A stretch of 27,535 nucleotides of DNA from a virus: positions 1 through 27,535 of the IMG/VR virus record IMGVR_UViG_3300025083_002851; one strand, given 5' to 3'. Below, in pieces: positions 5,957 to 25,784 of the stretch. Numbering within the stretch: the first letter of the stretch is position 1; each line of letters begins with the position of its first letter. The notes under the pieces are model-generated. The model saw nothing but the letters and a program-made list of their open reading frames with translations, was not told where the DNA came from and ran no database searches. The position numbers were made by a program, and so were the translations under genes.

Positions 5957-7365
5957 TTAACCTTACGTGATATGTATCGGCGTATATGATTATGCGCCGA
6001 TTCACCGTGTCCAGTTGTACGTGAACTAGCCCATTCCCATGGGTCTAAAGGTTTACACTTTTTCTTGCCCAAAATACTTGCGGCTCTCAATGCCGCTACA
6101 TCAGCAGTTCTCTTGTCTGTGGTTGCTGAAGTCCAAAACACATCATGTCCACTTGTTTGTTGTGTGAGACGTATTCCAAATTTTTCAGGGTTCTTGCTCA
6201 TTTCGCTGTAGTTGTGTTCATTGCCTGGTATTCTATATAAGCCTAAACTGTTAGGTATGATGCTTTTGAGTAATTTATTATCAGCAATATGACTCATTGT
6301 GTCTATGGCTTCTTCAAGAGGTTCACCGGGTATACCCATTATGTATCCAGCACAGGTGTGCCAATGTGGGAAAGTATCTCTGATAAAACGCATAAAGTCA
6401 TATGCTTTTTCTTTTCTAATACCTTTGCGAATCATTTTACTTGCTTCGCGGTTTAGTGTTTCAATACCAAAGTAATGACCATGGAAGCCACATTCATCAA
6501 GTAGTTCTGCTTGGTAAGGTTTTGCCATCATGATATCAAATCTATTGTATCCTACTATGGTAGGAACATAATCTAACATGCCTGTGGCAGTGTGCAATGT
6601 TTGTATCTTGTTGTCGTCCTCGTTAAAGGTATCGTCTACACAACTGAATGTGTCTATACCATAACGTACATTTGCTATTCTAAAAAATCTTTCTAATTTT
6701 GCTACACTGGCATCGTTTACTTTTTTAGCATTTCTAAATTCAAAATTGCAAAAAGTACAATTAAACTTGCATCCTAGTCTTGTTTCAAAATTGATAATGT
6801 CATTTTTATCCAAACAGAAATCATTGTGTAGTTCTGGTACAATAGGATCTTCGATTACTTCATTGCTTGGATTGTGAAATTTTTGAACACCATTAACAGT
6901 TTCTACAGTGTTAGGCAAAGGCTCACTGCCCTCTAACCATCTTTCAAATAAATGTAAACTTCTACCTTGGAATACTGCATCTGGAATAACACTGTCTAAA
7001 CTGTAATCTATTAGATTAATAGGTCCGCCAATGATTAATTTTATGTTGTATTCTTTTTTCACATGTTTGATAAATGCTGTCACTGTATTATCACCGCTTA
7101 ACATATAATTGTTAAACAGTGTGCTACACACAATAACAGGATTTCTAACACCAAAACGTGTTACCCATTTTTCGAACATTTCAATTAGGGTAACAGGATG
7201 CCAGAAGTCTGTGTAATTAATTACAGTGCTGGGTATGTTGCGTTTGTGAAATACTTCGTGTAATGCAAAAGGTGCAAGTGGACGTATTGTGTGGGCTCTG
7301 TATTCGTCTCTGACGTTAGTATTAGTACACTCTAATATAAATGCACCATCTATGTTTGATCTCAT
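5938..7365 (-). CDS. Radical SAM enzyme with N-terminal B12-binding-like domain (paralogue 1)
   Basis: A 475-residue protein. The radical SAM cluster motif C-x3-C-x2-C is at Cys199, Cys203 and Cys206 (LGCKFNCTFCNF); these cysteines bind the [4Fe-4S] cluster that cleaves S-adenosylmethionine. The first 150 residues have a Rossmann-like pattern with CSTLFNN and IIGGP, as in cobalamin-binding domains of class B-type radical SAM proteins, but the DxHxxG cobalt-ligating motif is not visible, so B12 may not be bound. Downstream, GIETL and the GIPGE strand motif match the SAM-binding barrel. It is clearly paralogous to the protein at 17297-18766. Substrate unknown. Its start overlaps the 103-residue gene's stop by one base. 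Confidence 0.88.
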   Translation of the reverse strand: MRSNIDGAFILECTNTNVRDEYRAHTIRPLAPFALHEVFHKRNIPSTVINYTDFWHPVTLIEMFEKWVTRFGVRNPVIVCSTLFNNYMLSGDNTVTAFIKHVKKEYNIKLIIGGPINLIDYSLDSVIPDAVFQGRSLHLFERWLEGSEPLPNTVETVNGVQKFHNPSNEVIEDPIVPELHNDFCLDKNDIINFETRLGCKFNCTFCNFEFRNAKKVNDASVAKLERFFRIANVRYGIDTFSCVDDTFNEDDNKIQTLHTATGMLDYVPTIVGYNRFDIMMAKPYQAELLDECGFHGHYFGIETLNREASKMIRKGIRKEKAYDFMRFIRDTFPHWHTCAGYIMGIPGEPLEEAIDTMSHIADNKLLKSIIPNSLGLYRIPGNEHNYSEMSKNPEKFGIRLTQQTSGHDVFWTSATTDKRTADVAALRAASILGKKKCKPLDPWEWASSRTTGHGESAHNHIRRYISRKVNYITWL

Positions 7366-14590: not shown

Positions 14591-15422
14591 AGTGTGATAA
14601 TATGTTGTGTTCTAGTATGTGTATGGTCTGCTTTCTCTGTCTGAATATCACATCTAATCCGGGTAATGCTTGGACTACTTTGTTTTCTATGCTATATGAT
14701 TCTTCGTTGCCAAATGCTAGGCAGTTGTAGGAATTGATTTTGTAATTCAATGCACCAAAATTATCTACTGTTGCATTGTACTCTTTTAAGTCTAAGTTAT
14801 TAACAAGTAGACTTGCTGTAGATGCAAACACATCGTTAGTGTCTACTATCATTGCAGGAACATTATTGTTTCTACTTGTCCTGTCTATCAGTATGCTGAA
14901 TCTATTGTTGTTGCTCACCAATGTGTTATAGGTTTCTCCTTGCTTGGTAAATTTGAATCCTATATCTTGGTAATGGTCCATCACTGATCTGTGATGTTGA
15001 TTGTACACTATGCCTGATATGTGTTGAAACTCAGGCTTGGAATATGCAGGTAAGTCGTATACTTTGTGTCTTTGCAGTATGTTTCGTATCTTGGCATATT
15101 CATCTTCATCAACAAAAAGACTTCTAAAAGGTGTTCCATTATCGAGAATGTACATTGCTAAGTCATCATCATACTTAACAGGCAAGTGTTCTATTGATGA
15201 CAGTGGGGTAACAAATCCTATCCCTGATATGCCATCTTTTTCTGCATCGTCATTTCTGTTTAATAAAATAATTGAATTACGTTGGGTCCACAGTTGAGCA
15301 TTGTTTGTTTCACTTGATGTACGCATACGAAAACCCAAGGCGGCAAACTGCTCACCTATGCTCTCATCTGAATACCTACTTGGATTATATGTGTATTCTA
15401 AAAATGCGTACTCTGTTGTCAT
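14577..15422 (-). CDS. Glyoxalase/VOC-fold protein resembling 4-hydroxyphenylpyruvate dioxygenase
   Basis: A 281-residue protein. The N-terminal 80 residues (AFLEYTYNP, then EQFAALGFRMRT, then AQLWTQRNSIILLNRNDDAEKDGISGIGFVT) match the first half of HPPD-like proteins, where a phase of strand-helix-strand ends in a hydrophobic 'xLxRQGxINFxLN' unit. The second half shows a repeated weaker version (DHYQDIGFKFTKQG...NRFSILIDR), consistent with two or more VOC modules. I cannot see the full His-His-Glu iron-binding triad, so catalysis is doubtful. The gene is coupled to the Fe-S carrier upstream by a four-base overlap. Confidence 0.5.
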   Translation of the reverse strand: MTTEYAFLEYTYNPSRYSDESIGEQFAALGFRMRTSSETNNAQLWTQRNSIILLNRNDDAEKDGISGIGFVTPLSSIEHLPVKYDDDLAMYILDNGTPFRSLFVDEDEYAKIRNILQRHKVYDLPAYSKPEFQHISGIVYNQHHRSVMDHYQDIGFKFTKQGETYNTLVSNNNRFSILIDRTSRNNNVPAMIVDTNDVFASTASLLVNNLDLKEYNATVDNFGALNYKINSYNCLAFGNEESYSIENKVVQALPGLDVIFRQRKQTIHILEHNILSHYERI

Positions 15423-15784
15423 ATGCTAAATGTTACTGATTCCCCGCAACCACATGCACTGTCTGCTAATGGTGCTTTGATTTCTATGTGTTGTCCAGCA
15501 ATGCCTGTGACCAATTCTATGGTACTGCCTGCTAGATACTGTTTACTTAACGTGTCTAAATAAAATGTCCAACCGTTGTATTCTTTGCTGTAGTCTGTTA
15601 AGTTGATGTCTGATATATCGCTGATCAATTTCCAGTCGTACATAAAACCTGCACAACCTCCGCCAGTCAAACTTAACTTAATGCCAATAGCATCAGCACC
15701 TTCTGTTTGAGCAAGAAAGTGTTGTTGGGCACTTTCTGTTAGGGTTACTAGATCCTGGTTTGGATCAAATGTTTTAATCTCCAT
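15419..15784 (-). CDS. A-type iron-sulfur carrier (SufA/IscA/ErpA-like)
   Basis: A 121-residue protein with the three cysteines that define A-type carriers: Cys44 in GGGCAGF, and Cys111 and Cys113 in SACGCGESVTF near the C-terminus. These proteins receive Fe-S clusters from the scaffold and pass them to target enzymes. I start it at the ATG at 15784; a GTG at 15799 would add five residues. No Shine-Dalgarno is visible. It sits between ClpP and the VOC-like gene, about 700 bases from a SufE-like gene and 1.5 kb from a radical SAM gene, which are its likely partners. Confidence 0.92.
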   Translation of the reverse strand: MEIKTFDPNQDLVTLTESAQQHFLAQTEGADAIGIKLSLTGGGCAGFMYDWKLISDISDINLTDYSKEYNGWTFYLDTLSKQYLAGSTIELVTGIAGQHIEIKAPLADSACGCGESVTFSI

Positions 15785-15829
15785 ACTACTATTTAACACA
15801 ATTAAAGCATTGTTTATATAGTATGTGAA

Positions 15830-16420
15830 TTAAATTCGCTTGGTAATGATTTCGTCTACAAGGCCAAAGTCTAATGCTTCTTGGGCAGTCATAAAGTTAT
15901 CACGATCCATTGCTGATTCAAACTCTTCGTATGTTTTACCAGCAGTGTTGTGCTTAACGTATGCTTCTGTGAGTTCACGTTTGATACGCACAATCTCTTT
16001 AGCACGTATTTCAATATCACTTGCTTGTCCTTGAGCACCACCTAATGGTTGATGAATCATGTGCCTTGCTCCTGGTAACATAAAACGTTTACCTGGTGCA
16101 CCTGCGTTAGCAAGGAATGAACCCATGCTGGCCGCTTGTCCCATTACAATAGTCGATACTTCTGGCTTGATGTATTGCATTGTGTCATACATTGCCATAC
16201 CTGCTGTTACAACACCCCCAGGTGAATTGATATAGAAGTTGATGTCTGTGTCTGGATCATCTGCTTCTAGGAATAGTAACTGAGCACAAATGCTATTACT
16301 TACTGCATCATTGACTTCTCCGTTGAGAAATACAATTCTTTCTTTTAGCAGTCTGCTGTAGATATCGTAACTACGCTCTCCTGCACTTGTTTTTTCAATT
16401 ACGTATGGGACAAAATTCAT
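15830..16420 (-). CDS. clpP: ATP-dependent Clp protease proteolytic subunit
   Basis: A 196-residue protein with the full serine protease triad: Ser98 in GQAASMGS, His123 in MIHQP, and Asp174 in DRDNF. INSPGG (residues 64-69) forms the oxyanion strand. Length matches bacterial ClpP without propeptide. No ClpX or ClpA is in the window, so it must work with host unfoldases, perhaps to shift which host proteins are degraded. It has its own sigma-70 promoter with the -35 box overlapping the SufE-like stop. Phage ClpP genes are known in marine T4-like phages. Confidence 0.95.
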
Positions 16421-16446
16421 TTTTATTACCTGTTTGTTAAAAGTTA

Positions 16447-16475
16447 ATTGTATAACAATTTGTTAAGTATGTCAA
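16447..16475 (-). promoter_or_regulatory. Sigma-70 promoter for clpP with inverted repeat at the -10
   Basis: Minus strand TTGACA (16475-16470), 17-base spacer, TACAAT (16452-16447). The -10 sits in the inverted repeat AATTGT-TAT-ACAATT (16446-16460), which could be a repressor site. Start expected near 16440, giving a leader of about 20 bases with AGG before the ATG. Confidence 0.75.
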
Positions 16476-16864
16476 TCACTAAGTGCAATACTGTATATTT
16501 TATTGATGAATTTTTGAAATGATCGTTTTCTTTCAAACAATAAAAATCTTGTTATATTGTCAAAATCTCTAAATTTAACTTGTAAAATCTCTTGTTTAGT
16601 TTTGTTACCGTAAACGTCTGTGAGTATTTTACCAATGCCATTAACAAACTTACTGTCGGAAAGAAAAGTAAAACTAAATGTACCATCAGCATTCTTAGCA
16701 CCTGTAATCCATACAGGTGAACTACAACCTGCTACATAGTCTTCTTCATTTCTTGCTGTAACTTTAGTAAGTACTCCATCTGATATGGAGTTTAACCAAG
16801 CGACATAATCGTTTGGATTATCAATTGGCAATGCTTGAGCATTGTATTCTTCTAATGATGACAT
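16472..16864 (-). CDS. SufE-like sulfur acceptor
   Basis: A 130-residue protein from the ATG at 16864. The core VAGCSSPVWITG (with Cys47) matches the SufE/CsdE active site V-x-G-C-x-S-x-V-W, where the cysteine takes persulfide from a SufS-type desulfurase. The following F-x-F-x-S-D-S-K-F-V-N-G-I-G-K-I-L and Y-x-x-K-T-x-Q-E-I-L are also SufE-like. Length fits the family (about 138). No SufS, SufB or SufC is in the window, so it would tap the host desulfurase. Its start is five bases after a TATAAATA late box. An upstream GTG (16900) is less likely. Confidence 0.85.
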   Translation of the reverse strand: MSSLEEYNAQALPIDNPNDYVAWLNSISDGVLTKVTARNEEDYVAGCSSPVWITGAKNADGTFSFTFLSDSKFVNGIGKILTDVYGNKTKQEILQVKFRDFDNITRFLLFERKRSFQKFINKIYSIALSD

Positions 16865-16869
16865 ACTGA

Positions 16870-16877
16870 TATTTATA
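16870..16877 (-). promoter_or_regulatory. T4-type late promoter box TATAAATA before the SufE-like gene
   Basis: The minus strand reads TATAAATA, a perfect T4 late box, ending five bases before the ATG at 16864. With normal late-promoter geometry the transcript would begin at or next to the start codon. Almost the same string (ATATAA[A/G]TATCAGTATG) occurs before the coiled-coil gene that starts at 23834. Confidence 0.6.
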
Positions 16878-16925
16878 TCCTGAGTTAGGTTGTGGCCCAC
16901 GGAAGTGAACCACGAGTGTTTTTTG

Positions 16926-17087
16926 TTACATAATTGGTTGCATAGCCACCCACATCATCCATGCCGTAGTTAGACTCAAAAAACCCATTGCAATATCATC
17001 GCAAAAGTGTCCGTCGTTGCAGACGCGGTCTTTGAACTCGTTCCAGGTATCGGTGATTGAGTGAGCAACCTTTGTCAAGGTTGTCAT
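16926..17087 (-). CDS. Small membrane-anchored protein, 53 residues
   Basis: The ATG at 17087 is chosen because a clear GGAG lies eight bases upstream; a GTG at 17129 would add 14 residues but has no such site. The N-terminal half is soluble and contains two cysteines (about residues 23 and 29); the C-terminal half is a transmembrane helix (about residues 32-50, MGFLSLTTAWMMWVAMQ). No family is recognised. It lies between the two iron-sulfur-related genes. Confidence 0.6.
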   Translation of the reverse strand: MTTLTKVAHSITDTWNEFKDRVCNDGHFCDDIAMGFLSLTTAWMMWVAMQPIM

Positions 17088-17296
17088 GTTATTCTCCAGT
17101 CCTAAATTAAATTTAGCAACTTCGTTCACTGCCTCTTACGAGCACAGCTCAGTGTAAAAAAAGTTCCTTAACTTTTGTAGACCCTCATACACATACATAG
17201 TGTAGGCATAATAGCCCGAGGCATCAACATTTACATTGTTGTGGAAGGGAAGTGCCCTACCTTCCAACATCTATTTATCAATAGTTAAAACATCAG
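17088..17296 (-). other. 209-base intergenic leader, structured
   Basis: Between the radical SAM stop and the 53-residue gene. On the minus strand it begins with a late-promoter box (17279-17272), then a stem TGTTGGAAGG paired with CCTTCCACAACA (two-base bulge), then an AAAAGTT-AAGG-AACTTTT hairpin with a short U-run. A 44-codon frame (17270-17136) is present but starts one base after the promoter box, so it would not be in the transcript. A structured 5' leader or small RNA is the better reading. Confidence 0.4.
17272..17279 (-). promoter_or_regulatory. T4-type late promoter box GATAAATA
   Basis: Minus strand GATAAATA, 17 bases after the radical SAM stop and 184 bases before the ATG at 17087. 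It would give an unusually long leader for this genome. Confidence 0.55.
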
Positions 17297-18766
17297 TTAA
17301 GTTTTCTGGTTATTTTTGAACCATTCTGACTTTTGAGTGAAATATTGTTTGCGAATCTTTTTTGCAACACTCAGAGATCGCTTTTTAATTTGTTGTGTGT
17401 ATGCCACCATGTCAGGAACATTACTCACAACACCATGCGCCATAAAGTTCAAGTATTCAAATGAACTCAACCCTGTTGGAAAATTAACAGACCTCAAGTA
17501 AGCATCTGCCTTGTCTCTGATTGTGAGTGCAGATTTAGAATCAGTCCATTCGTTCTTCCAATGCATTAATTTTTTACTGACTCTGAAATCTTCTTCTTCA
17601 GTGATTGTGTAACCATACTTTTCAGGGTTAGCACTCATATCGCTTACATAGTTATCGTCATATACATCACTGTTGGGTTTGCCAAGTTCCAGTACACTGA
17701 TATACAATGCATCTAATAATTTTTCGTCCGCTATACGTTTTATATTGTTGAGAAAACTTTGTTCACTTTCTCCTCTAAGACCTAAAATTATTCCACTGCT
17801 TATTAGTGTTTCAGGAGATAATTGTTTTAGTTTTTTGAGAATGTCAACTGTCTTGTGTATGTTACCACTTTTGTTTGCCAACTTTGCACTGCTACTTTCT
17901 AAAGTTTCAATACCAAAACTAACACCTGATATTTTTAATTGTTCCCAAAGCTCTTGTTGTTCTTGCATACCAAACAGTTCAACCCTAAAAAACCCGGCCA
18001 ACTTTGGATCAAAGTCTAAATTGTTTTTTACTTCTAACAGTGTTCTAAGTTTTTGGGTATCATCATTACAGGTGTCATCAGCAAGATAAAAATGTTCTGA
18101 ACCGTACTTGTTATTCATGTGTTCCATGAATTGAGTTATATATTCAGATTGTTGCAGTAATGGATTTTTTGTATTACGCAAATCAAAACTGCAAAAACTA
18201 CAATTAAATTTACAACCTAAACCTAATTCAAATCCCACAATGTCCTTGCTAGTGATAAAGTCACAGTCTCTGAAGTAACCAATCACAGGCTTCTCAATGT
18301 TGACATCTACGTTGCGATTTATAAACACATTAGGATAAGGTGTAGCAAACCTGCTCATGTCCTCATCATCTAACCATGCTTCAAATATCTCCATACTGCG
18401 ACCAACAAAGAAATAATCAACTAAATTTAAGAGTCCTTTTTCAAAGTATCTATTGCCACCAAGGAGTATTTTGACATGTGGTATTTCTTGCTTAACCTGC
18501 AACAAAACGTTCTCAATTGAATAAGTTACATGATTACTAAACGGCGTACTTAATGCAATAATTGGGTCTTTAGAGTCCTTAAGATAAGTTATTATAGAAT
18601 CTAGTAATAGGTCTTTGGGCCAATGACTGAACCAATCAATTATGGTGTTCTCTATTCCTCTGCTATCGAGTCTTCTAGCAACATCTGTGGCTCCTATATT
18701 TCTGTATGTATTACTGGTATACAGGTCAGTTCCCACTGTGTTTTCACTGAGAATTAAAACTTTCAT
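17297..18766 (-). CDS. Radical SAM enzyme with N-terminal B12-binding-like domain (paralogue 2)
   Basis: A 489-residue protein with the same layout as the one at 5938-7365: a Rossmann-like N-terminal domain (residues 1-130, ALSTPFSN and LLGGN), then the radical SAM motif at Cys185, Cys189, Cys192 (LGCKFNCSFCSF), then matching blocks such as LADDTCNDDTQKLRTL, SFGIETLES and MSANPEKYGYTIT. The DxHxxG B12 motif is not visible. The two proteins differ enough to have distinct substrates. A GTAAATA late-like box lies six bases before the ATG, directly after the terminator of the upstream gene, so it is expressed separately. It is near the SufE-like and A-type carrier genes. Confidence 0.88.
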   Translation of the reverse strand: MKVLILSENTVGTDLYTSNTYRNIGATDVARRLDSRGIENTIIDWFSHWPKDLLLDSIITYLKDSKDPIIALSTPFSNHVTYSIENVLLQVKQEIPHVKILLGGNRYFEKGLLNLVDYFFVGRSMEIFEAWLDDEDMSRFATPYPNVFINRNVDVNIEKPVIGYFRDCDFITSKDIVGFELGLGCKFNCSFCSFDLRNTKNPLLQQSEYITQFMEHMNNKYGSEHFYLADDTCNDDTQKLRTLLEVKNNLDFDPKLAGFFRVELFGMQEQQELWEQLKISGVSFGIETLESSSAKLANKSGNIHKTVDILKKLKQLSPETLISSGIILGLRGESEQSFLNNIKRIADEKLLDALYISVLELGKPNSDVYDDNYVSDMSANPEKYGYTITEEEDFRVSKKLMHWKNEWTDSKSALTIRDKADAYLRSVNFPTGLSSFEYLNFMAHGVVSNVPDMVAYTQQIKKRSLSVAKKIRKQYFTQKSEWFKNNQKT

Positions 18767-18787
18767 ATAGTGTATTTACGTTAAAGA

Positions 18788-18813
18788 ATAAAAAGCCAGC
18801 ATAGAGCTGGCTT
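18788..18813 (-). terminator. Rho-independent terminator
   Basis: Minus strand AAGCCAGC-TCTAT-GCTGGCTT, an eight-base-pair perfect stem with a five-base loop followed by TTTATT. It ends the transcript of the EF-hand membrane protein (stop at 18836) and isolates the radical SAM gene. Confidence 0.88.
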
Positions 18814-18835
18814 CTTATGTTTGCAAACAAAAGAA

Positions 18836-19147
18836 TTACTTCTTTTGATCTTTGATGCCTTTTTTAAGATCGGCAATCATTGTATCTTTGTTTTTTCTCT
18901 TGTCTAGCTCAACACCAAAATCACGACCTAATTCCTCAAGTTGTGCTTTAGTTTGTGCTTTGAGTTTAGCAAGTGTAGGAAGTTTTTTAACTTCTGCTTT
19001 AACGCCTGCCTTGGCATTTTCTACTGCTTCTTTAACATCAGCAACATCAACCTTTCCGTCATTGTTGACGTCAAGACCTTTGTCTTTGTTAAAGTAGTAA
19101 ACAACACCACCCAATACTAAGAGACCAATAATGAATACAATTTCCAT
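18836..19147 (-). CDS. Membrane protein with dockerin-type EF-hand loop and HeH/SAP-like domain
   Basis: A 103-residue protein from the ATG at 19147 (AGGAG upstream; a TTG six bases earlier is not needed). Residues 1-18 are a membrane anchor. Residues 26-37 read D-V-N-N-D-G-K-V-D-V-A-D, a perfect dockerin-type calcium loop. After an Ala/Lys-rich helix, residues 63-98 (KAQTKAQLEELGRDFGVELDKRKNKDTMIADLKKGI) match the helix-extension-helix/SAP-like fold (x-x-L-E-E-L-G-x-x-x-G-V-E-L-D-K-R-x-x-K-x-x-M-I). This joins calcium binding to a possible DNA- or protein-binding tip at the membrane. Role unknown. Confidence 0.7.
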   Translation of the reverse strand: MEIVFIIGLLVLGGVVYYFNKDKGLDVNNDGKVDVADVKEAVENAKAGVKAEVKKLPTLAKLKAQTKAQLEELGRDFGVELDKRKNKDTMIADLKKGIKDQKK

Positions 19148-19149
19148 AA

Positions 19150-20094
19150 TCAACTCCTAAGATATATATCTAATTGTTCTAAGTCCTCATAACGTGAACT
19201 ATCGAACGGGTGTACAAGATTGAAAGGATTTGCTCGTTTGTAAGTAGTACTCCTCACTCTGTCAGCGACAGCCTGAACAATCGCTTTATCTTGCTCGTTA
19301 AGTGATTCCATATCGACTCCACCCCTCATAAGAGAGAATAGAGCGATATCGAACTCCAAGTAACTAAAACCAAATTGGTCCTCGTCACCGTCGGCAATGC
19401 CTAAACCGTCTGTAGGTTTTGCCTCCACAATGCTTTGTGGTACTCCGAGATATTCTGCTAACGCAGGTATCTCCCAGCTCTTGGTCATTGCTTGGATAGG
19501 TGAGACGTCACCAACATCACCATGCAATGTCCAAAACCCTGCCGCAAGTTCTGAGAAGTTATCTGTACTTGCCACACAACCTCCTAGTTTACTTGCTAGA
19601 TTATAAAGTGTAATCATTCTAAGTCTGGCTCGAATGTTACCCTTTCTAATATTTTGTTCTTTCATGTTAACACCAACAAGTTCTTTGTGGAAGTCAACAT
19701 CTGTGTTTTGATAAAATTCTACTAAGTTGTCAAAGGCATCAGTAAGGTCAATCTTTAGCATTCTAATACCTAATGCATTACATGCTTCTATGCCTCTGTT
19801 AGTTTCTTCTGGATTTTGATGTATAGGCATTACTACACCTGTAACATTCCATCCAGCATTCTTGAATAGTGCGGCAGTAACAGCACTGTCTATGCCGCCA
19901 CTCATGCCAAGTACAATATTATCTATACCATGTTGGATTTTGTACTTTGCTAATTCGCTGACAACAGATCTACTTAAATCTGCTATATTATTGTGATAGA
20001 CTCCATAAGAAATAAGATCTGTGAGTCTCTCTTGAAACCAAGGTGACAGAGAAGGATCTCTGTTGTACCTTTGAATATTTTCTTGTATGCTCAT
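19150..20094 (-). CDS. nadE: NH3-dependent NAD+ synthetase
   Basis: A 314-residue protein that makes NAD+ from deamido-NAD, ATP and ammonia. It has the PP-loop SGGIDS (residues 65-70) that grips ATP, then STDNFSELAAGFWTLHGDVGDVSPI, the glutamate/threonine/aspartate cluster for deamido-NAD, and the lid ADGDEDQFGFSYLE. Bacterial NadE is about 275 residues; here an N-terminal helical extension of about 40 residues precedes the core. Glutaminase domain is absent. It has a late-type AATAAATA box ten bases before the start. NAD synthesis genes are a known phage cargo that also counters NAD-depleting defences. Confidence 0.93.
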   Translation of the reverse strand: MSIQENIQRYNRDPSLSPWFQERLTDLISYGVYHNNIADLSRSVVSELAKYKIQHGIDNIVLGMSGGIDSAVTAALFKNAGWNVTGVVMPIHQNPEETNRGIEACNALGIRMLKIDLTDAFDNLVEFYQNTDVDFHKELVGVNMKEQNIRKGNIRARLRMITLYNLASKLGGCVASTDNFSELAAGFWTLHGDVGDVSPIQAMTKSWEIPALAEYLGVPQSIVEAKPTDGLGIADGDEDQFGFSYLEFDIALFSLMRGGVDMESLNEQDKAIVQAVADRVRSTTYKRANPFNLVHPFDSSRYEDLEQLDIYLRS

Positions 20095-20104
20095 AATTTA
20101 ATTT

Positions 20105-20112
20105 TATTTATT
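20105..20112 (-). promoter_or_regulatory. T4-type late promoter box AATAAATA before nadE
   Basis: Minus strand AATAAATA in the 28-base gap between the GMP reductase stop and the nadE ATG. It would start a transcript close to the start codon. Confidence 0.5.
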
Positions 20113-20122
20113 AAAACACCTA

Positions 20123-21241
20123 TTATTCACCAACAGTAAATGGTTCGTAAGTGGTGTTGAATTGTTTGCCATTGTTAACTTGCACAAAAGTAGTGCGTTT
20201 GCTGAGTTCTTTCAAACTCTTTGCACCAACATAAGTACAAGTACTGCGGAGACCGCCAAGAATGTCTCCAATAACGGATTCGACAGGACCTTTGTAAGGT
20301 ACACGAACCACCCGGCCTTCACTTGCTCTATACTCTTTTGTTCCACCATGTTTCTCCTGTGCCGCGGTACTGCTCATACCATAAAATTGTACAAATTGTT
20401 TCTCAACTTTTTTACCTACTCCTGCACTTGTGCTAGGTGCTTGTTCATCAGTAATAAAAGTTTTTGTAATTACTTCGCCACCGCCTTCGTCTGTGCCTGA
20501 CAACATACCGCCCAGCATCACAAAGTCTGCTCCAGCACCAAATGCTTTTGCTACGTCACCTGGTGAACTGCATCCGCCATCGGCGATGATGTGTCCGCCA
20601 AGACCATGAGCGGCATCTGCACATTCAATGACTGCTGATAATTGTGGATAGCCCACACCAGTTTTAATCCGAGTAGTGCAAACACTACCAGGGCCAATGC
20701 CCACTTTAACGATATCCGCTCCATTTAATATTAACTCCTCTGTGATATCCGGAGTAACAACATTGCCTGCAATGATAGTTACATTAGGATGATTGTCTCT
20801 AAAACGTTTAACAAAATCTATAAATCTTTCTGAATAGCCATTAGCAACATCAATACACACATAGTCAATAGATCTGCTGAGTGATAATGTTTTATCAATG
20901 CGTTCGAGATCAATGTCTGTGATGCCTGTGCTGACTGCAACTGTTTGACGCAAATCATCTTTGTTAGTATGATTATTTAACCAATCCCAAATTTCTGCAG
21001 GTTGATAACTTTTTGCTAAACAGGTAAACATTCCTTTTTTAGCCAATGGTAATGCCATATCAAATGTACCAACACCATCCATGTTAGCGGCCATGATAGG
21101 AATACCTCTGTACGTTTTGCCGCTATTCCTAAAATTATATTCTCTGTTTAAGTCAACGTCCTTGCGACTGCCTATTTCACTTCTTTTAGGTCTAAACAGT
21201 ACATCAGCATAATCTAATTTTACGTCACGTTCAATTCTCAT
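20123..21241 (-). CDS. guaC: GMP reductase
   Basis: A 372-residue IMPDH/GMPR-family barrel enzyme that converts GMP to IMP with NADPH. The start [26 protein letters not shown] is like E. coli GuaC, the catalytic Cys188 lies in [11 protein letters not shown], and [22 protein letters not shown] and [24 protein letters not shown] match GuaC (347 residues in E. coli) rather than IMPDH; no CBS domains are present. It would return guanine nucleotides to the purine pool for dATP or dGTP balance. The start is coupled to the SGNH gene by a four-base overlap. Confidence 0.93.
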
Positions 21242-22281
21242 TGTTTATTGCCCTCATAGTCATAAACACTATCAATCCATTCTGCGGAATTATAGTAATT
21301 CCATTTTTCTTTGGTGCTAACCCATTTGCCCTGATGATATAAATCAATGATAGGACTACCGCCATGATCAACATCAACATCTTTCATTTGATTGAAAAGG
21401 TCTAGTATTGTTTGTGCTAACAGATTATTGTTATCAATATTCATATGACACAAACGCAAGTCTCTGCCATGGAACTCCCATTTTGTATCAGCATCGTTAT
21501 GCGGTGGTAGCCAACAGTCATGGAAGTCACCATTATTCATGTACCGACTTGGTGTTCCAGTTTCACCAAAACATATATTTTGCAATCCTGATATCACTGG
21601 TCCTGCTCTGTTTTCTACGTCCACTACTGGAACATCAGGCATGAAAGGTATACTAGGGCCAGAGTTTCTAAATGGCATAACATTAATTAAATTGAAGTTG
21701 TGTTGTTTTGACAAGTTTTGTACAGTATCAAAAACCATTTGTCCAAACATGTCATTTAACATTACATCGTGGCTGTACTTGAAAAATAGATTTATATAAT
21801 TTTGAATATTGTCTTCACCCTGTAATTCGTCTTCTATATGTGCAAATTGCGGTGACAGGAAAGACCTAGTTTCATTTGGTTCTAGCAGGGAAATAATACG
21901 TTGTGGATTTGTGTGTACAAAAACTACATTTTTAATTTCGTCAGTTTCGTTGATGTCAGCAATTAGGTTATTAAGTGACCACCATAGGTTGGTGCCACCT
22001 CGACCTTTTATTTCAACAGGCCCTTTGTACGAATGTCCTCTGAGAGTGTCTTCATAATCTTCTTCAGACAGATCAGCACCTGCCATTCCTAAAAAGTATT
22101 CTGCTAATAAACTAGGCCACGGCTGAGCATCTAAATGGTCTGGGTCACACATTTCTGTGTTAGTAGGATCAGCAAAACTATCACCGTATATAGATAGTTC
22201 AAGTGTGCCTTTGTGAGCGTTATCTTTTACAGACGCTTCTGTAACAACTGTATCGAATACACGTCTGGATTCATTTAACAT
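21238..22281 (-). CDS. SGNH/GDSL-type hydrolase
   Basis: A 347-residue protein with Ser35 in the block I motif (SIYGDSFAD), a Gly-Gly-Thr-Asn block II (RGGTNLWWS), a block III strand (NVVFVHTNP) and a C-terminal DLRLCHMN-x-D-N-x-N-L-L-A block V carrying the histidine. SGNH enzymes are esterases or acetyl-transferases acting on sugars, lipids or peptidoglycan. About 300 residues is usual; the insert around residues 150-250 is phage-specific. It could remove or add acetyl groups on host glycan. Overlaps the GMP reductase start. Confidence 0.75.
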
Positions 22282-22547
22282 TAACTAGTTCCTGCTAATT
22301 TTCGTTCTATTATTTTTTCAACTGTTTCGTATTCAACACGATTAAATGCACCTTCAGGAAATTGAGGAGGTGTCCATTCTACAATCCTTTCTCTCCTGTA
22401 CACGTATTTAAGCCACACTCGTTGTTCACTAAGTGTTTTAATGGGCCGCCACGCAAATACTTTTTGCCACTTGGTGTACTTGGCATCTGTTGGGCCTGGT
22501 TTCAAATGTGGGTACCTAGTGTAAGCCGGATGGCCGTACATACTCAT
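22281..22547 (-). CDS. Conserved phage hypothetical, 88 residues
   Basis: A basic, Trp/Tyr-rich protein with KVFAWRPIKTLSEQRVWLKYVYRRERIVEWTPPQFPEGAFNR in the middle. The K-x-FAW-P-x-KT and WTPPQFPE motifs recur, as far as I recall, in short proteins of marine phages. Function unknown. The gene overlaps the stop of its upstream neighbour (ATGA) and the start of the SGNH gene by one base. Confidence 0.7.
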   Translation of the reverse strand: MSMYGHPAYTRYPHLKPGPTDAKYTKWQKVFAWRPIKTLSEQRVWLKYVYRRERIVEWTPPQFPEGAFNRVEYETVEKIIERKLAGTS

Positions 22548-23239
22548 TCGTCAAAGTAGCCATCTTCCTCTAACTGTTCAACAGTGTAATGATCAAGTGG
22601 GTCATGCCACTTTCTATTGACGTAACCAACATGAGCATAGTATGCCTTGCCAGTTGTGTCGTTGTAATCATAGTTTGCTTCAAGTTCTTCTTTGCCGTAG
22701 TAAACTGCTTCAACAAGATCTGCAAGGTCACTTTCACAACTGCCAAATCTCAATTTCTCTGCATCAAACTGTTCATCGGTATCCAAGAACCAACATGCAA
22801 ATGTACCTTTCTCTGAACTGTGAAATGCTAACACAGGCACAGTTTGATCTTCGTACTCTTCGTCAACCTCATCTGAACTGTAACATTCTCTGCTGTACAT
22901 GTGAGTAGGTTCAACTTCGATTGAATCTTCGTATGCCCAATCATCTGAACCGTCTGTTGGTACAGGTGTAACTGTCCAACTGCCATCTGAATAACAACCA
23001 TTTTGATGTTCTAGATCATCAATGTCATGCCAGTAATTGTCTACCATTGGTGGTCCATCAGGATTCTCTAATGCATCTTCAGGTTCATCATCATCCATAT
23101 CATCAAATGATATTACTTGATCAATGAGGTCTTCTTGCTCCTCATGTTTCCAATACTCAACAAATTCTGCTGGTACTTCGCCGACAGTGAGTTCACCACC
23201 GTAGTTGCCTGCTTCAATTCTATATCTAAATTTAGCCAT
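22544..23239 (-). CDS. Highly acidic hypothetical
   Basis: A 231-residue protein with a striking excess of Asp, Glu, Tyr and Trp, giving a very low isoelectric point. The opening is a short strand pair (KFRYRIEAGNYGGELTVGEV), then long acidic tracts (DDMDDDEPEDALE), then a more ordered part (VPVLAFHSSEKGTFACWFLD). Such composition can mimic DNA phosphate; anti-defence or DNA-mimic action is only a guess. Shine-Dalgarno GGAG precedes the ATG at 23239. Confidence 0.7.
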   Translation of the reverse strand: MAKFRYRIEAGNYGGELTVGEVPAEFVEYWKHEEQEDLIDQVISFDDMDDDEPEDALENPDGPPMVDNYWHDIDDLEHQNGCYSDGSWTVTPVPTDGSDDWAYEDSIEVEPTHMYSRECYSSDEVDEEYEDQTVPVLAFHSSEKGTFACWFLDTDEQFDAEKLRFGSCESDLADLVEAVYYGKEELEANYDYNDTTGKAYYAHVGYVNRKWHDPLDHYTVEQLEEDGYFDE

Positions 23240-23629
23240 TTAATTCCACTCCTTAGTATCACCAATTGCTCCTACTGGTGATGTTTTGTATGAATTCAAA
23301 AGGGTTACCCTATCAATAAAATACATATATGCTGTTACTTTAGCAGATGATATATTAACTGATATTTTTTTCCTATTATAGAAATCTGGATACCCTTCAA
23401 TTGCATCTAAGTATTCAAATGTTTCATCATCGACAGCATATACTTCTCCTTTGATTTTATACTTGCCTTCTGTGACAGCAGGAAAACTTCCCAAGTCAAA
23501 GATGTCATGTATGTTATCCGAGGTAATGCCTTCACCCACAAACTCAGCACCTTCGAAATATTGCATTCCTCTGGTTGTGTTACCGGTTTTGAGAGTTCCG
23601 TAGACGAAAACTAGTCTAGGTTTTTTCAC
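23240..23629 (-). CDS. Gamma-glutamylcyclotransferase-like (GGCT/AIG2 fold) protein
   Basis: A 129-residue protein with YGTLK (residues 10-14), the substrate-binding signature, and the LDAIEGYP segment with Glu78 as the expected catalytic residue, plus GEVYAVDDETFEYLD. These proteins cleave gamma-glutamyl groups to 5-oxoproline. Phage members may act on gamma-glutamyl modified amino acids or glutathione-like compounds; substrate unknown. It overlaps by 14 bases the coiled-coil gene upstream. Confidence 0.85.
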   Translation of the reverse strand: MKKPRLVFVYGTLKTGNTTRGMQYFEGAEFVGEGITSDNIHDIFDLGSFPAVTEGKYKIKGEVYAVDDETFEYLDAIEGYPDFYNRKKISVNISSAKVTAYMYFIDRVTLLNSYKTSPVGAIGDTKEWN

Positions 23630-23834
23630 TTATCTGTTCCTCTAATGCTTGGATTCGTTGATTCATCAACGTCAGCAATTTACTTGCATCAGCATCCATA
23701 GGAACCGCTTGACTACTTATTGCCATTCCCTCTAACTCATCGATACGATCGTTGAGGTCGGCTATAAGTATATCTTTGTTTTTGATAGTTTCTATCAATT
23801 CAGACTTTGTCATTTGCGTAGTGCTTTTCTTCAT
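23616..23834 (-). CDS. Small coiled-coil protein
   Basis: A 72-residue protein from ATG 23834 (MKKSTTQMTKSELIETIKNK...). It has two heptad-repeat stretches (about residues 9-34 and 48-70) split by a Gly/Ala/Pro linker. A longer version beginning with a cysteine-rich segment would need an upstream start inside the promoter, so I reject it. It is the first gene of the leftward transcript from the 23888 promoter. Function unknown. Confidence 0.65.
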   Translation of the reverse strand: MKKSTTQMTKSELIETIKNKDILIADLNDRIDELEGMAISSQAVPMDADASKLLTLMNQRIQALEEQISEKT

Positions 23835-23860
23835 ACTGATACTTATATTAATAAAACAAC

Positions 23861-23888
23861 ATTGTAGCATTTTTCTGGTGTTTGTCAA
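23861..23888 (-). promoter_or_regulatory. Sigma-70 promoter, leftward
   Basis: Minus strand TTGACA (23888-23883), 16-base spacer, TACAAT (23866-23861). It would begin transcription about 20 bases before the coiled-coil gene ATG and drive the run 23834 to 20123. It faces the rightward promoter of the 42-codon gene. Confidence 0.75.
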
Positions 23889-23935
23889 CCTTTTTGAAAG
23901 TCATTCTATAATCAGTTAATAAACACTGTGTTAAT

Positions 23936-23943
23936 GATAAATA
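23936..23943 (+). promoter_or_regulatory. T4-type late promoter box GATAAATA, rightward
   Basis: The plus strand has GATAAATA 107 bases before the ATG of the 42-codon gene, upstream of the TGTAACA repeats. It may give a second, later transcript for that gene. Confidence 0.5.
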
Positions 23944-23946
23944 TTC

Positions 23947-23986
23947 TGTAACACGATTGTAACATTTAAGTTGCCCGATTGTAACA
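23947..23986 (+). repeat. Three phased TGTAACA repeats
   Basis: TGTAACA occurs at 23947-23953, 23958-23964 and 23980-23986: start-to-start spacings of 11 and 22 bases, one and two helical turns. The last two are part of an 11-base repeat (CGATTGTAACA). All lie on one face of the helix just upstream of the -35 box at 24000, the place expected for an activator or repressor array. Confidence 0.65.
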
Positions 23987-23999
23987 GTACTCATTAGAG

Positions 24000-24028
24000 T
24001 TGACGTTACTGGTGCTTTGTGGTACATT
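24000..24028 (+). promoter_or_regulatory. Sigma-70 promoter, rightward
   Basis: TTGACG (24000-24005), a 17-base spacer and TACATT (24023-24028). Start expected near 24035, six bases before GGAG and 16 before the ATG at 24051. The -10 box is weak, in keeping with control by a bound factor. Confidence 0.6.
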
Positions 24029-24050
24029 GTGTCATACATAGGAGAATGAA

Positions 24051-24179
24051 ATGGCGAAATCCATAGGAATAGTAGCCAGTGCAACTCATCGTTTAGCATT
24101 GGACTACTTTAGAAAATTTGATACCATGATGAAGCAAGGGCGTCTTGAGGTCGTTGCTCAAAATATGTGGCCTGAATAA
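24051..24179 (+). CDS. 42-residue plus-strand gene
   Basis: A short gene with GGAG six bases before the ATG, a promoter and a repeat array upstream, and a stop one base before the converging nfuA stop at 24181. The peptide starts MAKSIGIVASATHRLALDYF and ends VVAQNMWPE; it is helical, with both basic and hydrophobic residues. Because it has such a well-built control region on the opposite strand from its neighbours, I think it is real. Small phage proteins expressed this way are often early host-takeover factors; this is inference. Confidence 0.6.
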   Translation: MAKSIGIVASATHRLALDYFRKFDTMMKQGRLEVVAQNMWPE

Positions 24180-24180
24180 A

Positions 24181-24762
24181 TTAAGTGTAATAGGCGTTAC
24201 TGGTATCTGTATGATCAGTAATATCTTTAACGCCTTTGACTTCGGGCACTGCCTTCATAATAGTGTCTTCCACAACATGTTTAAGTGTTGCATCAACTGC
24301 ACTACATCCTTGACACCCACCACCGAAACTGATGATAGCAACATCCTCATCTGTGATTTCAACAAGTGAAACTTCGCCACCATGCATCTTGACCATTTCA
24401 TTTACTTCGTTATATAGAACATAATTTACTTTGTCACTGAGTGTGGCATCAGGTCCCAACTTAGGTAACTTACTGTTAGGTGCTTTGATAGTCAGTGTTC
24501 CACCAGCAAAGTCAGCATCATAATTAATTAATGCATCATCAAGATATTTCACACTCTCACCAACAGCATAAACATCAAGTGGACCAAATGACTCTTTCAC
24601 ATCTGTTTCTTCGATACTTGATTCTTTGGCATAAGTTAATAATGTTTCTGCACGTGGTGTTCCAGGCTTGTCTACAAACAACCTCACACCAATTGCTTCA
24701 CTATTTTTACTGAGTAAGTTGCTGAGATATTCTCTTGCTGTTTCTGTTACTGTTATATTCAT
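24181..24762 (-). CDS. nfuA: NfuA-like iron-sulfur carrier
   Basis: A 193-residue protein (E. coli NfuA is 191). The N-terminal half is a degenerate A-type domain with no cysteines, as in NfuA; the C-terminal half is a Nfu domain with Cys150 and Cys153 in GGGCQGCSAVDATLK, which hold a [4Fe-4S] cluster shared between two subunits. NfuA passes clusters to enzymes and protects them under oxidative stress. The gene is coupled to the dCMP deaminase gene by a four-base ATGA overlap. Confidence 0.93.
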   Translation of the reverse strand: MNITVTETAREYLSNLLSKNSEAIGVRLFVDKPGTPRAETLLTYAKESSIEETDVKESFGPLDVYAVGESVKYLDDALINYDADFAGGTLTIKAPNSKLPKLGPDATLSDKVNYVLYNEVNEMVKMHGGEVSLVEITDEDVAIISFGGGCQGCSAVDATLKHVVEDTIMKAVPEVKGVKDITDHTDTSNAYYT

Positions 24763-25166
24763 ACCTTTATTACCTCAATGCCACTGTCGATTAAAAATTG
24801 TTTACCAGTGCCTTTGGCGGCTTGGTATTCTTCTCGGTAGTACACAGTGACTATACCACTTTGATGAATTAGTTTAGCACATTCCATACAAGGTAAGTGT
24901 GTGCAAAATAGTTCTGAGCCTCTACTGCTCTCTGAACTTTGTGCTACTTTGGCAATAGCATTAGTTTCTGCGTGAAGAACTTCTGGTTTTGTTTTTCCAT
25001 CTTCTTCACATTCATTATCCCAACCTGATGGCATACCATTGTAACCAATAGAAATAATTCTATTGTCTTTTACAATAAGTGCTCCAACCTTTGCTCTGGT
25101 TGCTGTACTTAATTGTGCAAATCTTTCTGCACAGTCCATGAATGCTGAAACAAATTTAATTTTCAT
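24759..25166 (-). CDS. Deoxycytidylate (dCMP) deaminase
   Basis: A 135-residue zinc enzyme that turns dCMP into dUMP for dTTP synthesis. Zinc ligands are His65 in HAE with catalytic Glu67 (HAETNAIAKVA), and Cys93 and Cys96 in LPCMECAKLI. The opening MKIKFVSAFMDCAERFAQLSTATRAKVGALIV matches phage dCMP deaminases. The ATG at 25166 is preferred: GAGG lies seven bases upstream, and a TTG at 25178 would only add residues encoded inside the Shine-Dalgarno region. It overlaps the Bfd-like gene by 11 bases. Confidence 0.92.
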   Translation of the reverse strand: MKIKFVSAFMDCAERFAQLSTATRAKVGALIVKDNRIISIGYNGMPSGWDNECEEDGKTKPEVLHAETNAIAKVAQSSESSRGSELFCTHLPCMECAKLIHQSGIVTVYYREEYQAAKGTGKQFLIDSGIEVIKV

Positions 25167-25317
25167 CTGTGTCCTCAATTTTTATGTCTGTGCCTGGGTA
25201 TTTATTTTCTTTTAACCATTCTAGACACTTACCACAATTAGAGCCAATCTTCTTTTTTAACTCTGGGTTTTCTTTTAGCATGGTTGTGGTAATTGCATTG
25301 CACACACAAATATACAT
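25156..25317 (-). CDS. Bfd-like [2Fe-2S] ferredoxin
   Basis: A 53-residue protein that starts MYICVCNAIT and has GSNCGKCLEWL: Cys4, Cys6, Cys28 and Cys31 give the C-x-C...C-x2-C pattern of bacterioferritin-associated ferredoxin. E. coli Bfd is 64 residues, with its second pair at 38 and 41; here the helix between the pairs is about ten residues shorter. Bfd reduces bacterioferritin to free stored iron. It lies next to nfuA and dCMP deaminase, with an 11-base overlap downstream. The start is one base after the cupin stop codon. Confidence 0.82.
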   Translation of the reverse strand: MYICVCNAITTTMLKENPELKKKIGSNCGKCLEWLKENKYPGTDIKIEDTDEN

Positions 25318-25318
25318 A

Positions 25319-25750
25319 CTACCCTTTGTAACGTTCAGCCAAATACTGTTCGTGTTGTTTCCATTCGCCTTTGTCTATAAATCCCCATTCCCTTAATTGG
25401 GGGCCTGGAATAAAAAGAGTCCAGCAATCAACGCCAGGTTCCAACTCAATACGGTGTAGGCTACGACTGCCAGCAATGCGTCCTTGACCTGGGGACCTCC
25501 ATTTTCGCTCGCCAGTCTCAAGGTGCTCCCAATAGCCACCTTTAAGGATAATAGTGAAATAAGGCCAAGGGTGATCATGTAAATCATCCGGGTCTCCTTT
25601 GTGAAAGTTATGAAGGAATATATTAAAAGGGAACCACTTGCGTTCCTTCAGAAACAAGTAGTATCTTGTTAAGTATGGTTCGTTACTGAGACGATCCATT
25701 ATAACTCTTTTACGTCCTAATTTTTCCAGAAGTGTGAGTACTATATTCAT
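25319..25750 (-). CDS. Cupin-fold protein with metal-binding HDHPW
   Basis: A 143-residue protein with a single jelly-roll: FHKGDPDDLHDHPWPYFTIILKGGYWEHL (the first cupin motif, with His residues of HDHPW as likely metal ligands) and SLHRIELEPGVDCWTLFIPG as the second. The N-terminus is basic. Similar short cupins occur in phages and can be isomerases, dioxygenases or sugar-binding proteins; I cannot name a reaction. It has a leaderless sigma-70 promoter. It is followed one base later by the Bfd-like gene, so an iron-linked role is possible. Confidence 0.8.
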   Translation of the reverse strand: MNIVLTLLEKLGRKRVIMDRLSNEPYLTRYYLFLKERKWFPFNIFLHNFHKGDPDDLHDHPWPYFTIILKGGYWEHLETGERKWRSPGQGRIAGSRSLHRIELEPGVDCWTLFIPGPQLREWGFIDKGEWKQHEQYLAERYKG

Positions 25751-25756
25751 ACTATA

Positions 25757-25784
25757 AGTATACGCTCTTTTACTGTGATGTCAA
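25757..25784 (-). promoter_or_regulatory. Sigma-70 promoter for the cupin gene, leaderless geometry
   Basis: Minus strand TTGACA (25784-25779), 16-base spacer, TATACT (25762-25757). The -10 ends six bases before the ATG at 25750, as at dnaJ. The promoter overlaps the end of the DUF6580-like gene. Confidence 0.8.

Follow-up and report, generated by a model that had tools for sequence, protein, structure and literature searches.

Iron-sulfur cluster assembly genes in a fragment of a T4-like marine phage: probably one state of a variable phage-encoded module

The stretch of viral DNA analyzed here (27,535 nucleotides, hereafter the window) encodes a SufE sulfur-transfer protein, an A-type Fe-S carrier, NfuA, a short Bfd-like protein and two radical SAM enzymes, all on one strand and with their cysteines intact. 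The virus belongs to a large T4-like marine phage lineage, with marine bacteria on the host side, and a 97-kb contig matching the window at 99.94% represents the same virus. The A-type carrier (IscA/SufA/ErpA family; 15419..15799, minus strand) matches PF01521 with 40 bits (cut-off 26.3) and the NCBIfam model TIGR00049 with 62.9 bits (cut-off 58.8). It has the three cysteines of the Fe-S_biosyn domain, at positions 44, 111, and 113 from a probable ATG start at 15787, and cysteines aligned with C50/C114/C116 of E. coli SufA are present in 20/20 phage A-type carriers. SufE (16472..16900, minus strand) has a clear SufE domain (PF02657, 48 bits, cut-off 27) and scores 35.6 bits against the NCBIfam SufE model, below its cut-off of 160. 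Its probable start is the ATG at 16864, which makes the persulfide cysteine Cys47; a cysteine aligns with the persulfide-accepting C51 of E. coli SufE in 35/35 phage SufE proteins, residue counts here keeping duplicates (G008 enters twice, and the SufB of G022 equals that of G008). With these two starts the cysteine numbers given in the preliminary description are correct. ClpP protease (15830..16420, minus strand; PF00574, 271 bits) lies between the two genes, a position that it also holds in many relatives, and SufE is found in 23 of the 23 records that carry ClpP, the window counted.

Further along the same strand is a full-length NfuA of 193 amino acids (24181..24762, minus strand), in which a degenerate, cysteine-free A-type domain (29.6 bits, cut-off 26.3) is fused to a NifU C-domain (PF01106, 64.2 bits, cut-off 27) with the CXXC motif at Cys150/153. 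TIGR03341 matches it end to end (residues 3-192) with 237.7 bits, below the equivalog cut-off of 269.35, and the CXXC is kept in all eight full-length sequences aligned, the window counted. NfuA overlaps by 4 nt with a deoxycytidylate deaminase-like gene (24759..25178, minus strand; 88.9 bits against the ComEB model, below its cut-off), which in turn overlaps by 23 nt with the Bfd-like gene (25156..25317, minus strand), and this order of overlapping genes is also seen in G010 and G024. The Bfd-like protein is the weak member of the set. It retains the four cysteines attributed to it earlier (C4, C6, C28, and C31), but its Fer2_BFD score (PF04324, 20.2 bits) is below the curated cut-off of 26 and the spacer between CxC and CxxC is shorter than in canonical Bfd. 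The best PDB match is a Bfd with an E-value of 0.13, and the AlphaFold2 model (pLDDT 60) is of too low confidence for a fold search. The short form is found again in relatives, and G026 has a homologue of greater length that scores 31.1 bits; across six aligned proteins, the window counted, CxC...CxxC is always present, six residues including all four cysteines are invariant and the spacer is shortened in five. Relative to G003, dN/dS was 0.06 for the A-type carrier, 0.08 for NfuA, 0.23 for SufE and 0.10 for the Bfd-like gene, the last on 37 codons only because the G003 copy is 37 amino acids long.

The two radical SAM enzymes are paralogous, as their profiles find each other. One (rSAM2; 17297..18766, minus strand; PF04055, 42.7 bits, cut-off 29.5) has a B12-binding-like N-domain and its CX3CX2C motif at C185/C189/C192, and its AlphaFold2 model (pLDDT 90.2) gave CysS, TsrM, OxsB, RimO, and MiaB among the best Foldseek matches. 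The other (rSAM1; 5938..7365, minus strand; PF04055, 51 bits, same cut-off) lies outside 15419-25317, the span in which both had been placed. The CX3CX2C motif is invariant in 13/13 radical SAM proteins. The B12-binding Pfam score (23.8) is below the cut-off of 32.1, and the fold resembles CysS, TsrM, and OxsB. An assignment as MiaB/RimO methylthiotransferases was rejected, since the closest NCBIfam model is the PhpK P-methyltransferase (54 bits of 600) and the PDB matches are mixed. The presence of four Fe-S proteins and two radical SAM enzymes, as first described, thus holds by domain matches, intact cysteines and dN/dS values well below 1.

The gene order of the window recurs in 27 related records, and SufE-ClpP-A-type forms a second recurring gene block. 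Among 50 relatives defined by gp44, hand-picked mainly by length from 80 listed gp44 loci (L096, L098, and L103, of 43-60 kb, are among those omitted), SufE was found in 25, compared with 0/33 control contigs, these being the contigs longer than 10 kb out of 80 control loci. Recurrence of the same genes in the same order, low dN/dS and this excess of SufE place the set beyond chance. Of the neighbouring genes, HSP20, ClpS, Redoxin (Prx), ClpX, DUF1289, RpiB, PhoH, DnaJ, and GGACT were confirmed by Pfam in one member each; those labelled GroES and gp62 lack a Pfam match and are presumed to be so, and NAM, MTMH, and names such as o12208 are working names. Co-occurrence of the families, which had been proposed as a check, gave a divided answer: SufE associates with NifU and IscU with PF01521, but SufE associates positively neither with PF01521 (12/25 with SufE vs. 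17/25 without, p 0.25) nor with PF00266 (p 0.50), in tests weakened by fragments and by kinship among records. The PF01521 count (29/50) is an undercount because it lacks A-type carriers that tblastn finds in G001 and G002, and some of the matches are NfuA A-domains. Radical SAM genes are present in 42/50 relatives, with 8 to 16 each in 8 of the 11 relatives above 200 kb. The supply of clusters to rSAM1 and rSAM2, as first suggested, is therefore plausible but unspecific, as radical SAM genes are also found in relatives without detected assembly genes.

Both the window and its 97-kb contig stop short of the next conserved block. Past the window's right edge, relatives with the same gene order have a ferritin-like gene, IscS-IscU and/or SufS. 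Eight relatives reach ClpS, and in six of them a desulfurase occupies the slot past the window edge (SufS in G005, G008, G012, G014, and G027; IscS in G024 and G027), with none at this slot in G010 and G035. G005 and G027, both with SufS, are close to the window by their clamp loader (87%). The G024 IscS scores 672.8 bits against TIGR02006 (cut-off 643.2) and its IscU 140.8 bits against PF01592 (cut-off 22); phage IscU reaches 165 of the 192 set by NCBIfam, and the catalytic residues of relatives' IscS and IscU are kept. The iron-storage-like protein of relatives matches ferritin/Dps-like chains, and together with the shortened Bfd this makes the proposed release of iron from bacterioferritin by Bfd a weak part of the original interpretation. 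The pairing of Bfd with bacterioferritin was not accepted as established.

The first reading of this DNA was that the virus encodes only SufE, carriers and Bfd, with desulfurase and scaffold supplied by the host; such a booster would raise flux at limiting steps. A host-dependent view of sufE is also taken in a study of Eastern Tropical North Pacific viromes, in the portion available (PMC8940887). We consider host dependence of the window virus to come close to an even chance, and it is a special case of a phage-encoded module rather than its full opposite. In agreement with it, PF00266, SufBD, and IscU have no match within the 97 kb of the window virus, and in G010, whose A-type carrier is 79% identical, ClpS directly adjoins Prx without SufS. 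Two large records point the same way: in G009 (250 kb), SufE occurs with an A-type carrier but nothing matches PF00266, SufBD or IscU, and in G035 (307 kb), SufE, a NifU C-domain, an A-type carrier and IscU are present and PF00266 is again without a match, so that by gene content part of the lineage looks host-dependent. On the other hand, the G010 record stops before the IscS-IscU slot, and the window and its contig end before the desulfurase slot that is filled in six of eight relatives; absence of SufS does therefore not establish host dependence, and a lack of SufS in this phage was rejected as a finding since the window is a fragment.

Some relatives carry far more of the pathway. SufB, SufC, SufD, and SufS occur together in 24 of their 41 SufB loci, a combination that is a property of the relatives and not of the window. 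In six loci SufB, C, S, E, and T and an A-type carrier are located shortly before DnaE, where the window has SufE-ClpP-A-type; the order in L317 is SufB-x-SufC-SufD(short)-SufS-RpiB-SufE-glutaredoxin-SufT-ferredoxin-A-type, followed by two genes and DnaE-o12208. Catalytic residues of the SUF operons are kept, the SUF proteins of G008 pass Pfam domain cut-offs and relatives' SufB is above the NCBIfam cut-off, with SufS (295 and 318 of 475), SufD (110 of 222), SufC (206 of 213), and SufT (118 of 143) below theirs. The claim of a coordinated set is in this way supported at the level of gene linkage: there are two recurring blocks, and relatives add assembly genes at matching positions.

It could be argued that the genes came from hosts, have no link with one another and persist by chance, or that the contigs are host DNA wrongly binned as viral. 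Several SufB do appear to be separate gains: in a quick, midpoint-rooted tree (8 of the 41 phage SufB left out as shorter than 440 aa or identical; bacterial set the best 80 of at least 589 plus E. coli) four fall among bacteria, L311 with Lysobacteraceae/Rhodanobacteraceae, L320 with Pelagibacteraceae, and also L318 and L319, and 5/41 SufB loci (L304, L314, L318, L319, and L320) have fewer than two other marker genes. However, 29 of the 33 distinct phage SufB lie on one side of a branch with modest support (SH-aLRT 85), and 36/41 loci carry at least two of 18 lineage marker families, some of them generic (ClpX, Hsp20). A clamp loader is present in 8/41 SufB loci and a terminase in 7/7 searched records above 200 kb (8/44 records overall), i.e., on some of the same contigs. 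As the synteny is moreover repeated on contigs of many metagenomes, with dN/dS well below 1 and intact active sites, this explanation is largely contradicted and extremely unlikely. Among phage records (INPHARED), window positions 3000-27000 gave by megablast just one 275-base stretch at 74% in two records named Staphylococcus phages; in tblastn window SufE gave no match at E 0.01 and a relative's SufE two weak ones. NfuA matched 6 records, IscU 9, SufB 24, and the A-type carrier 9. Several of these look from their names or annotations like bacterial DNA or the edge of a prophage; of two examined, MaAM05 has sufBCDS near panB and panC, and C48C1 is a Kyanoviridae phage with a NifU-type gene.

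The window is probably best seen as one state of a variable Fe-S cluster assembly module encoded by this T4-like marine lineage. The DNA shows directly which genes these are, that their active sites are intact and their order is conserved, that they are under purifying selection, and that they lie in a phage setting; on that basis we infer that the products are active and act jointly. SufE would take persulfide sulfur from a cysteine desulfurase, which in the window virus may be encoded beyond its edge, the A-type carrier and NfuA would bring clusters to apo-enzymes, and the Bfd-like protein may provide electrons or iron. Some relatives themselves encode a desulfurase (SufS and/or IscS), a scaffold (SufBCD or IscU), and a ferritin-like protein, with the genes in matching order and some of them just past the position of the window's right end; in others, where carriers and SufE alone are seen, the remainder would come from the host. 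During infection such a module may synthesize or replenish clusters for Fe-S enzymes of phage and host alike, with the radical SAM enzymes of the phage as the likely first clients. SufE-type proteins can also serve other acceptors, and it is conceivable that the sulfur is destined for other ends, e.g., nucleotide or tRNA thiolation, with carriers kept for unrelated needs; a neighbouring gene resembling NAD synthase matches MnmA weakly. That neighbour is, however, above the NAD synthase cut-off, and the operon partners are parts of cluster assembly (SufB, SufC, SufD, SufT, A-type, glutaredoxin, ferredoxin), which makes such sulfur trafficking very unlikely.

A stronger form of the module explanation is that part of this giant phage lineage is near self-sufficient in Fe-S biogenesis. 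Its members would have retained a SUF pathway (SufBCDS-E-T, A-type, glutaredoxin, ferredoxin), or replaced it by a phage IscS-IscU pair alongside NfuA and proteins resembling Bfd and ferritin, over a time sufficient for most phage SufB to come to lie on a branch of their own; the window set would be one module state with the desulfurase just past its edge, charging phage radical SAM enzymes. We put this forward tentatively, at somewhat less than an even chance: a clear desulfurase (strong PF00266 match) was seen in just 2 of the 11 gp44-relatives above 200 kb, G008 and G022, which have identical SufB, while PF00266 matches of 22 to 78 bits in G031, G034, G049, and G051 were excluded from the count. 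The SUF and ISC loci suggest that some relatives make a key enzyme cofactor with machinery of their own, beyond borrowing that of the host. Phage metabolic genes are usually interpreted as isolated additions that boost what the host pathway already does. If the stronger form is true, a virus can bring along an essential assembly machinery in its entirety, which would help to explain how a phage with about ten radical SAM genes keeps them charged. The short contigs also advise caution in inferring host dependence from them.

Single Fe-S genes of phages have been published before, while no published report of phage SufBCDS was found. T4-like marine viral genomes with an A-type carrier and/or IscU were described together with up to 12 radical SAM genes, glutaredoxin, ClpP, and paaD, and in the parts available cluster supply or recycling was already proposed for the viral proteins (Nishimura et al., 2017; PMC5332604). 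By word search, the main text of that paper contains no NfuA, SufE, SufB, SufS, IscS, desulfurase or ferritin, all present among the window and its relatives; its paaD possibly corresponds to the SufT-type protein (PF01883) of relatives' SUF operons, which also matches PaaD models. The Pacific viromes mentioned above contain viral sufE and nifU without sufS, and a host desulfurase was assumed; as far as the available portion goes, these are virome gene counts and not one genome, whereas here some relatives have sufS. Further cases are iscU and erpA in HMO-2011-type phages (PMC9038755), sufA in OM43 phages (PMC10580990), iscA in Chlorobium viruses (PMC8226683), and iscS, a desulfurase, in phages of phototrophic sulfur bacteria (PMC11041744), none of which, in the sections of these reports at hand, has SufB/SufC/SufD or an IscS-IscU pair in one phage. 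The SUF (sufABCDSE) and ISC operons of E. coli consist of the same families with the same catalytic residues as the phage genes. Compared with E. coli SUF, however, the phage order differs, the genes are located near phage replication genes, SufD is short in some, and the operon of L317 includes SufT, glutaredoxin, and ferredoxin.

The preliminary description listed four iron-sulfur proteins and two radical SAM enzymes in the window, and the A-type carrier, SufE, NfuA and both radical SAM proteins indeed all score above their Pfam cut-offs. The Bfd-like protein (25156-25317, minus strand) is less clear-cut, as it reaches only 20.2 bits against a cut-off of 26, although its four cysteines are invariant across an alignment of six proteins and, in relative G026, a longer homologue exceeds the cut-off. 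Its gene, the deoxycytidylate deaminase-like gene (24759-25178, minus strand) and the NfuA gene overlap by 23 and 4 nt. In the Bfd-like proteins of the window and of relative G008 (25646-25813, locus L262), CxC and CxxC are separated by a spacer that is shortened in the same way. Because this shortening is common to five of the six aligned proteins, they may form a distinct small family instead of being Bfd proper. Compared with relative G003, dN/dS was 0.234 for SufE, 0.062 for the A-type carrier, 0.076 for NfuA, 0.128 for the radical SAM gene at 17297-18766 and 0.102 (from 37 codons) for Bfd, next to 0.054 for ClpP and, against relative G002, 0.049 for the clamp loader. Judged by these values, the Fe-S genes of the window look functional and under selection.

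The two radical SAM proteins (5938-7365 and 17297-18766, both minus strand) are paralogues with an invariant CX3CX2C motif. The predicted structure of the second (pLDDT 90.2) best matches cobalamin-dependent radical SAM enzymes (CysS, TsrM, OxsB), followed by RimO and MiaB. Among the eleven relatives longer than 200 kb, eight have 8-16 radical SAM matches (G045 16, G047 14, G051 13, G009 and G049 12 each, G008 and G035 11 each, G048 8) and three have fewer (G030 and G037 5 each, G022 2); only G037 lacks assembly genes.

The window matches part of the 97,319-base record IMGVR_UViG_3300006752_006525 (G001) with 99.94% identity over its full 27,535 bases. Nearly all mapped genes lie on the minus strand, and they include a clamp-loader gene (PHROG 168), PhoH, a DnaJ domain and ClpP (Pfam), NAD synthase, GMP reductase and a UDP-glucose dehydrogenase-like gene; a tRNA search of the window found none. 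A small acyl carrier protein-like gene (397-618; PF00550, 26.3 bits, cut-off 20.8) is also present in 15 of 27 relatives read. A 156-aa protein (12732-13202) matches only part of PF07733, the alpha domain of bacterial DNA polymerase III (41 bits, over residues 79-155), and such a DnaE-like gene of about 150-180 aa, a stand-alone fragment in a T4-like phage, is kept in most relatives read.

Relatives were picked by clamp loader without reference to Fe-S genes; IMG/VR gave 246, of which 80 were listed and 50 of these searched whole. SufE was found in 25/50, PF01521 in 29/50 (a count that takes in the NfuA N-domain besides A-type carriers), the NifU C-domain and IscU in 10/50 each, Fer2_BFD in 4/50 (one above cut-off), SufB/D in 2/50, PF00266, which takes in the desulfurases, in 11/50 (seven records at 260-304 bits) and radical SAM genes in 42/50. 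At least one of SufE, PF01521, NifU C-domain or IscU occurs in 42/50. SufE was absent from all 33 control contigs, for which the helicase of C48C1, a T4-like phage, served as query (Fisher p 2e-7, with no correction for kinship or for the length of contigs). Among the records read nearly in full, namely the window and 27 relatives, all 23 with ClpP also carry SufE, and G007, G015 and G025, which lack SufE, likewise lack ClpP and DnaE.

Co-occurrence of the Fe-S families was seen for some pairs only. All ten NifU C-domain records have SufE (p 0.0006) and all ten IscU records have PF01521 (p 0.003), but no positive association was seen between SufE and PF01521 (present in 12/25 with SufE and 17/25 without, p 0.25) or PF00266 (p 0.50), p values among the 50 relatives being indications only because the records are mostly fragments and related to each other. 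Gene order is the better evidence, with the orders Bfd-deaminase-NfuA and SufE-ClpP-A-type recurring among relatives.

In G008 (339,794 bases) the slot between ClpS and peroxiredoxin holds SufB, a DUF1289 gene, SufC, SufD, SufS and SufT. With this SufB as query 41 viral loci were found, of which 24 have SufB, SufC, SufD and SufS and 31 have SufB, SufC and SufS; SufT is present in 26, SufE in 10 and a separate A-type carrier in 7. In six loci (L305, L306, L307, L315, L317, L321) SufB, SufC, SufS, SufE, SufT and the A-type carrier are co-directional shortly before DnaE and the gene o12208, which in L305-L307 are followed by the clamp loader. In the window, the corresponding stretch is occupied by SufE-ClpP-A-type, followed by four more genes and then DnaE. 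L317 additionally has RpiB, glutaredoxin, ferredoxin and a short SufD. In L311 SufB follows the deaminase-NfuA pair, ordered as in the window, and SufC and SufD were not found beside it with their own profiles. SufD-like proteins of about 145-195 aa stand beside full-length SufB and SufC in L305-L310, L313, L315, L317 and L321; the three scanned comprise the C-terminal part of SUFBD_core only, and together with SufB and SufC they possibly make up a minimal scaffold.

A SufS lies between ClpS and peroxiredoxin in G005, G012, G014 and G027, and in G010 and G024 ClpS adjoins peroxiredoxin with no SufS there. A SufS scan gave 22 viral loci, several of which belong to records mentioned above. Of the 22, 7 read ClpS-SufS-peroxiredoxin, 13 ClpS-SufB-C-D-S-SufT-peroxiredoxin, and 2 are cut before ClpS. 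The genes at the end of G001 are those that follow peroxiredoxin at about 1.1 kb in G024, and G001 therefore stops just short of this block. Going by the layout of G024, the block would follow within a few kb of the left end of G001, either with SufS in it or with the ferritin-like gene, IscS and IscU further out. G024 and G027 also carry a ferritin-like gene, IscS and IscU in the region before the NfuA block (assigned by family matches and own profiles, respectively). In L407, L409, L411 and L416 genes for ClpX, ClpS, Hsp20, peroxiredoxin and a ferritin-like protein form a block around the desulfurase slot, with ClpP located elsewhere; these may be a set with which the phage encodes protein quality control.

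Catalytic residues, scored by alignment to the E. coli proteins, were conserved: SufS C364 in 38/39 (one gap) and K226 in 39/39, SufE C51 in 35/35, SufB C405 in 41/42 (one gap), SufC K40 in 36/36, SufD H360 in 26/27 (one gap), the A-type cysteines in 20/20, the IscU ligands in 4/4 and IscS C328 in 2/2. In a quick, midpoint-rooted SufB tree with 33 distinct phage rows and 81 bacterial ones (the best 80 of at least 589, plus E. coli), 29 phage proteins fall on one side of a branch with no bacterial rows among them (SH-aLRT 85, below the tool's star). Those of L311, L318, L319 and L320 were placed among bacteria and therefore point to separate gains. The SufB of L320, a 328,149-base record with terminase, groups with those of Pelagibacteraceae on a branch that the tool starred, which hints at an independent gain and at Pelagibacter as host. 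Of 44 records searched for terminase, 8 have it, among them all seven above 200 kb; the majority of SufB records are shorter fragments that lack terminase. In MW495066.1 (Microcystis phage MaAM05), which is labelled a complete phage genome, the stretch that contains panB, panC and sufBCDS looks bacterial.

Among the eleven relatives above 200 kb a strong desulfurase match is limited to G008 and G022, whose SufB proteins are identical. G009 has only SufE and an A-type carrier; in G035, with SufE, A-type carrier, IscU and NifU C-domain, no desulfurase was found. The module thus varies from near-complete to carriers only. From its parts, their order and the intact sites, as read from sequence, we infer that sulfur would pass from a phage or host desulfurase to SufE and on to a scaffold (phage SufBCD or IscU, or a host scaffold), and that A-type carrier and NfuA would deliver from there to radical SAM and other enzymes, while Bfd-like and ferritin-like proteins may help with iron or electrons. 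The nearby ClpX, ClpS, ClpP, Hsp20 and peroxiredoxin genes would fit a stress setting.

Fe-S genes of marine phages, radical SAM clients and the idea of cluster supply have been published (PMC5332604), as have virome sufE without sufS (PMC8940887), phage iscU and erpA (PMC9038755), sufA (PMC10580990), iscA (PMC8226683) and iscS (PMC11041744). For Nitrospira viruses, a protein of cluster biosynthesis together with ferredoxin is on record as well (PMC7678222). The sufB passage checked in PMC12570018 deals with a Pelagibacter methylome and with no phage gene. Among the matches listed, a scope outside which bioRxiv preprints and most subscription papers fall, neither phage SufBCDS nor an IscS-IscU pair in one phage is reported.
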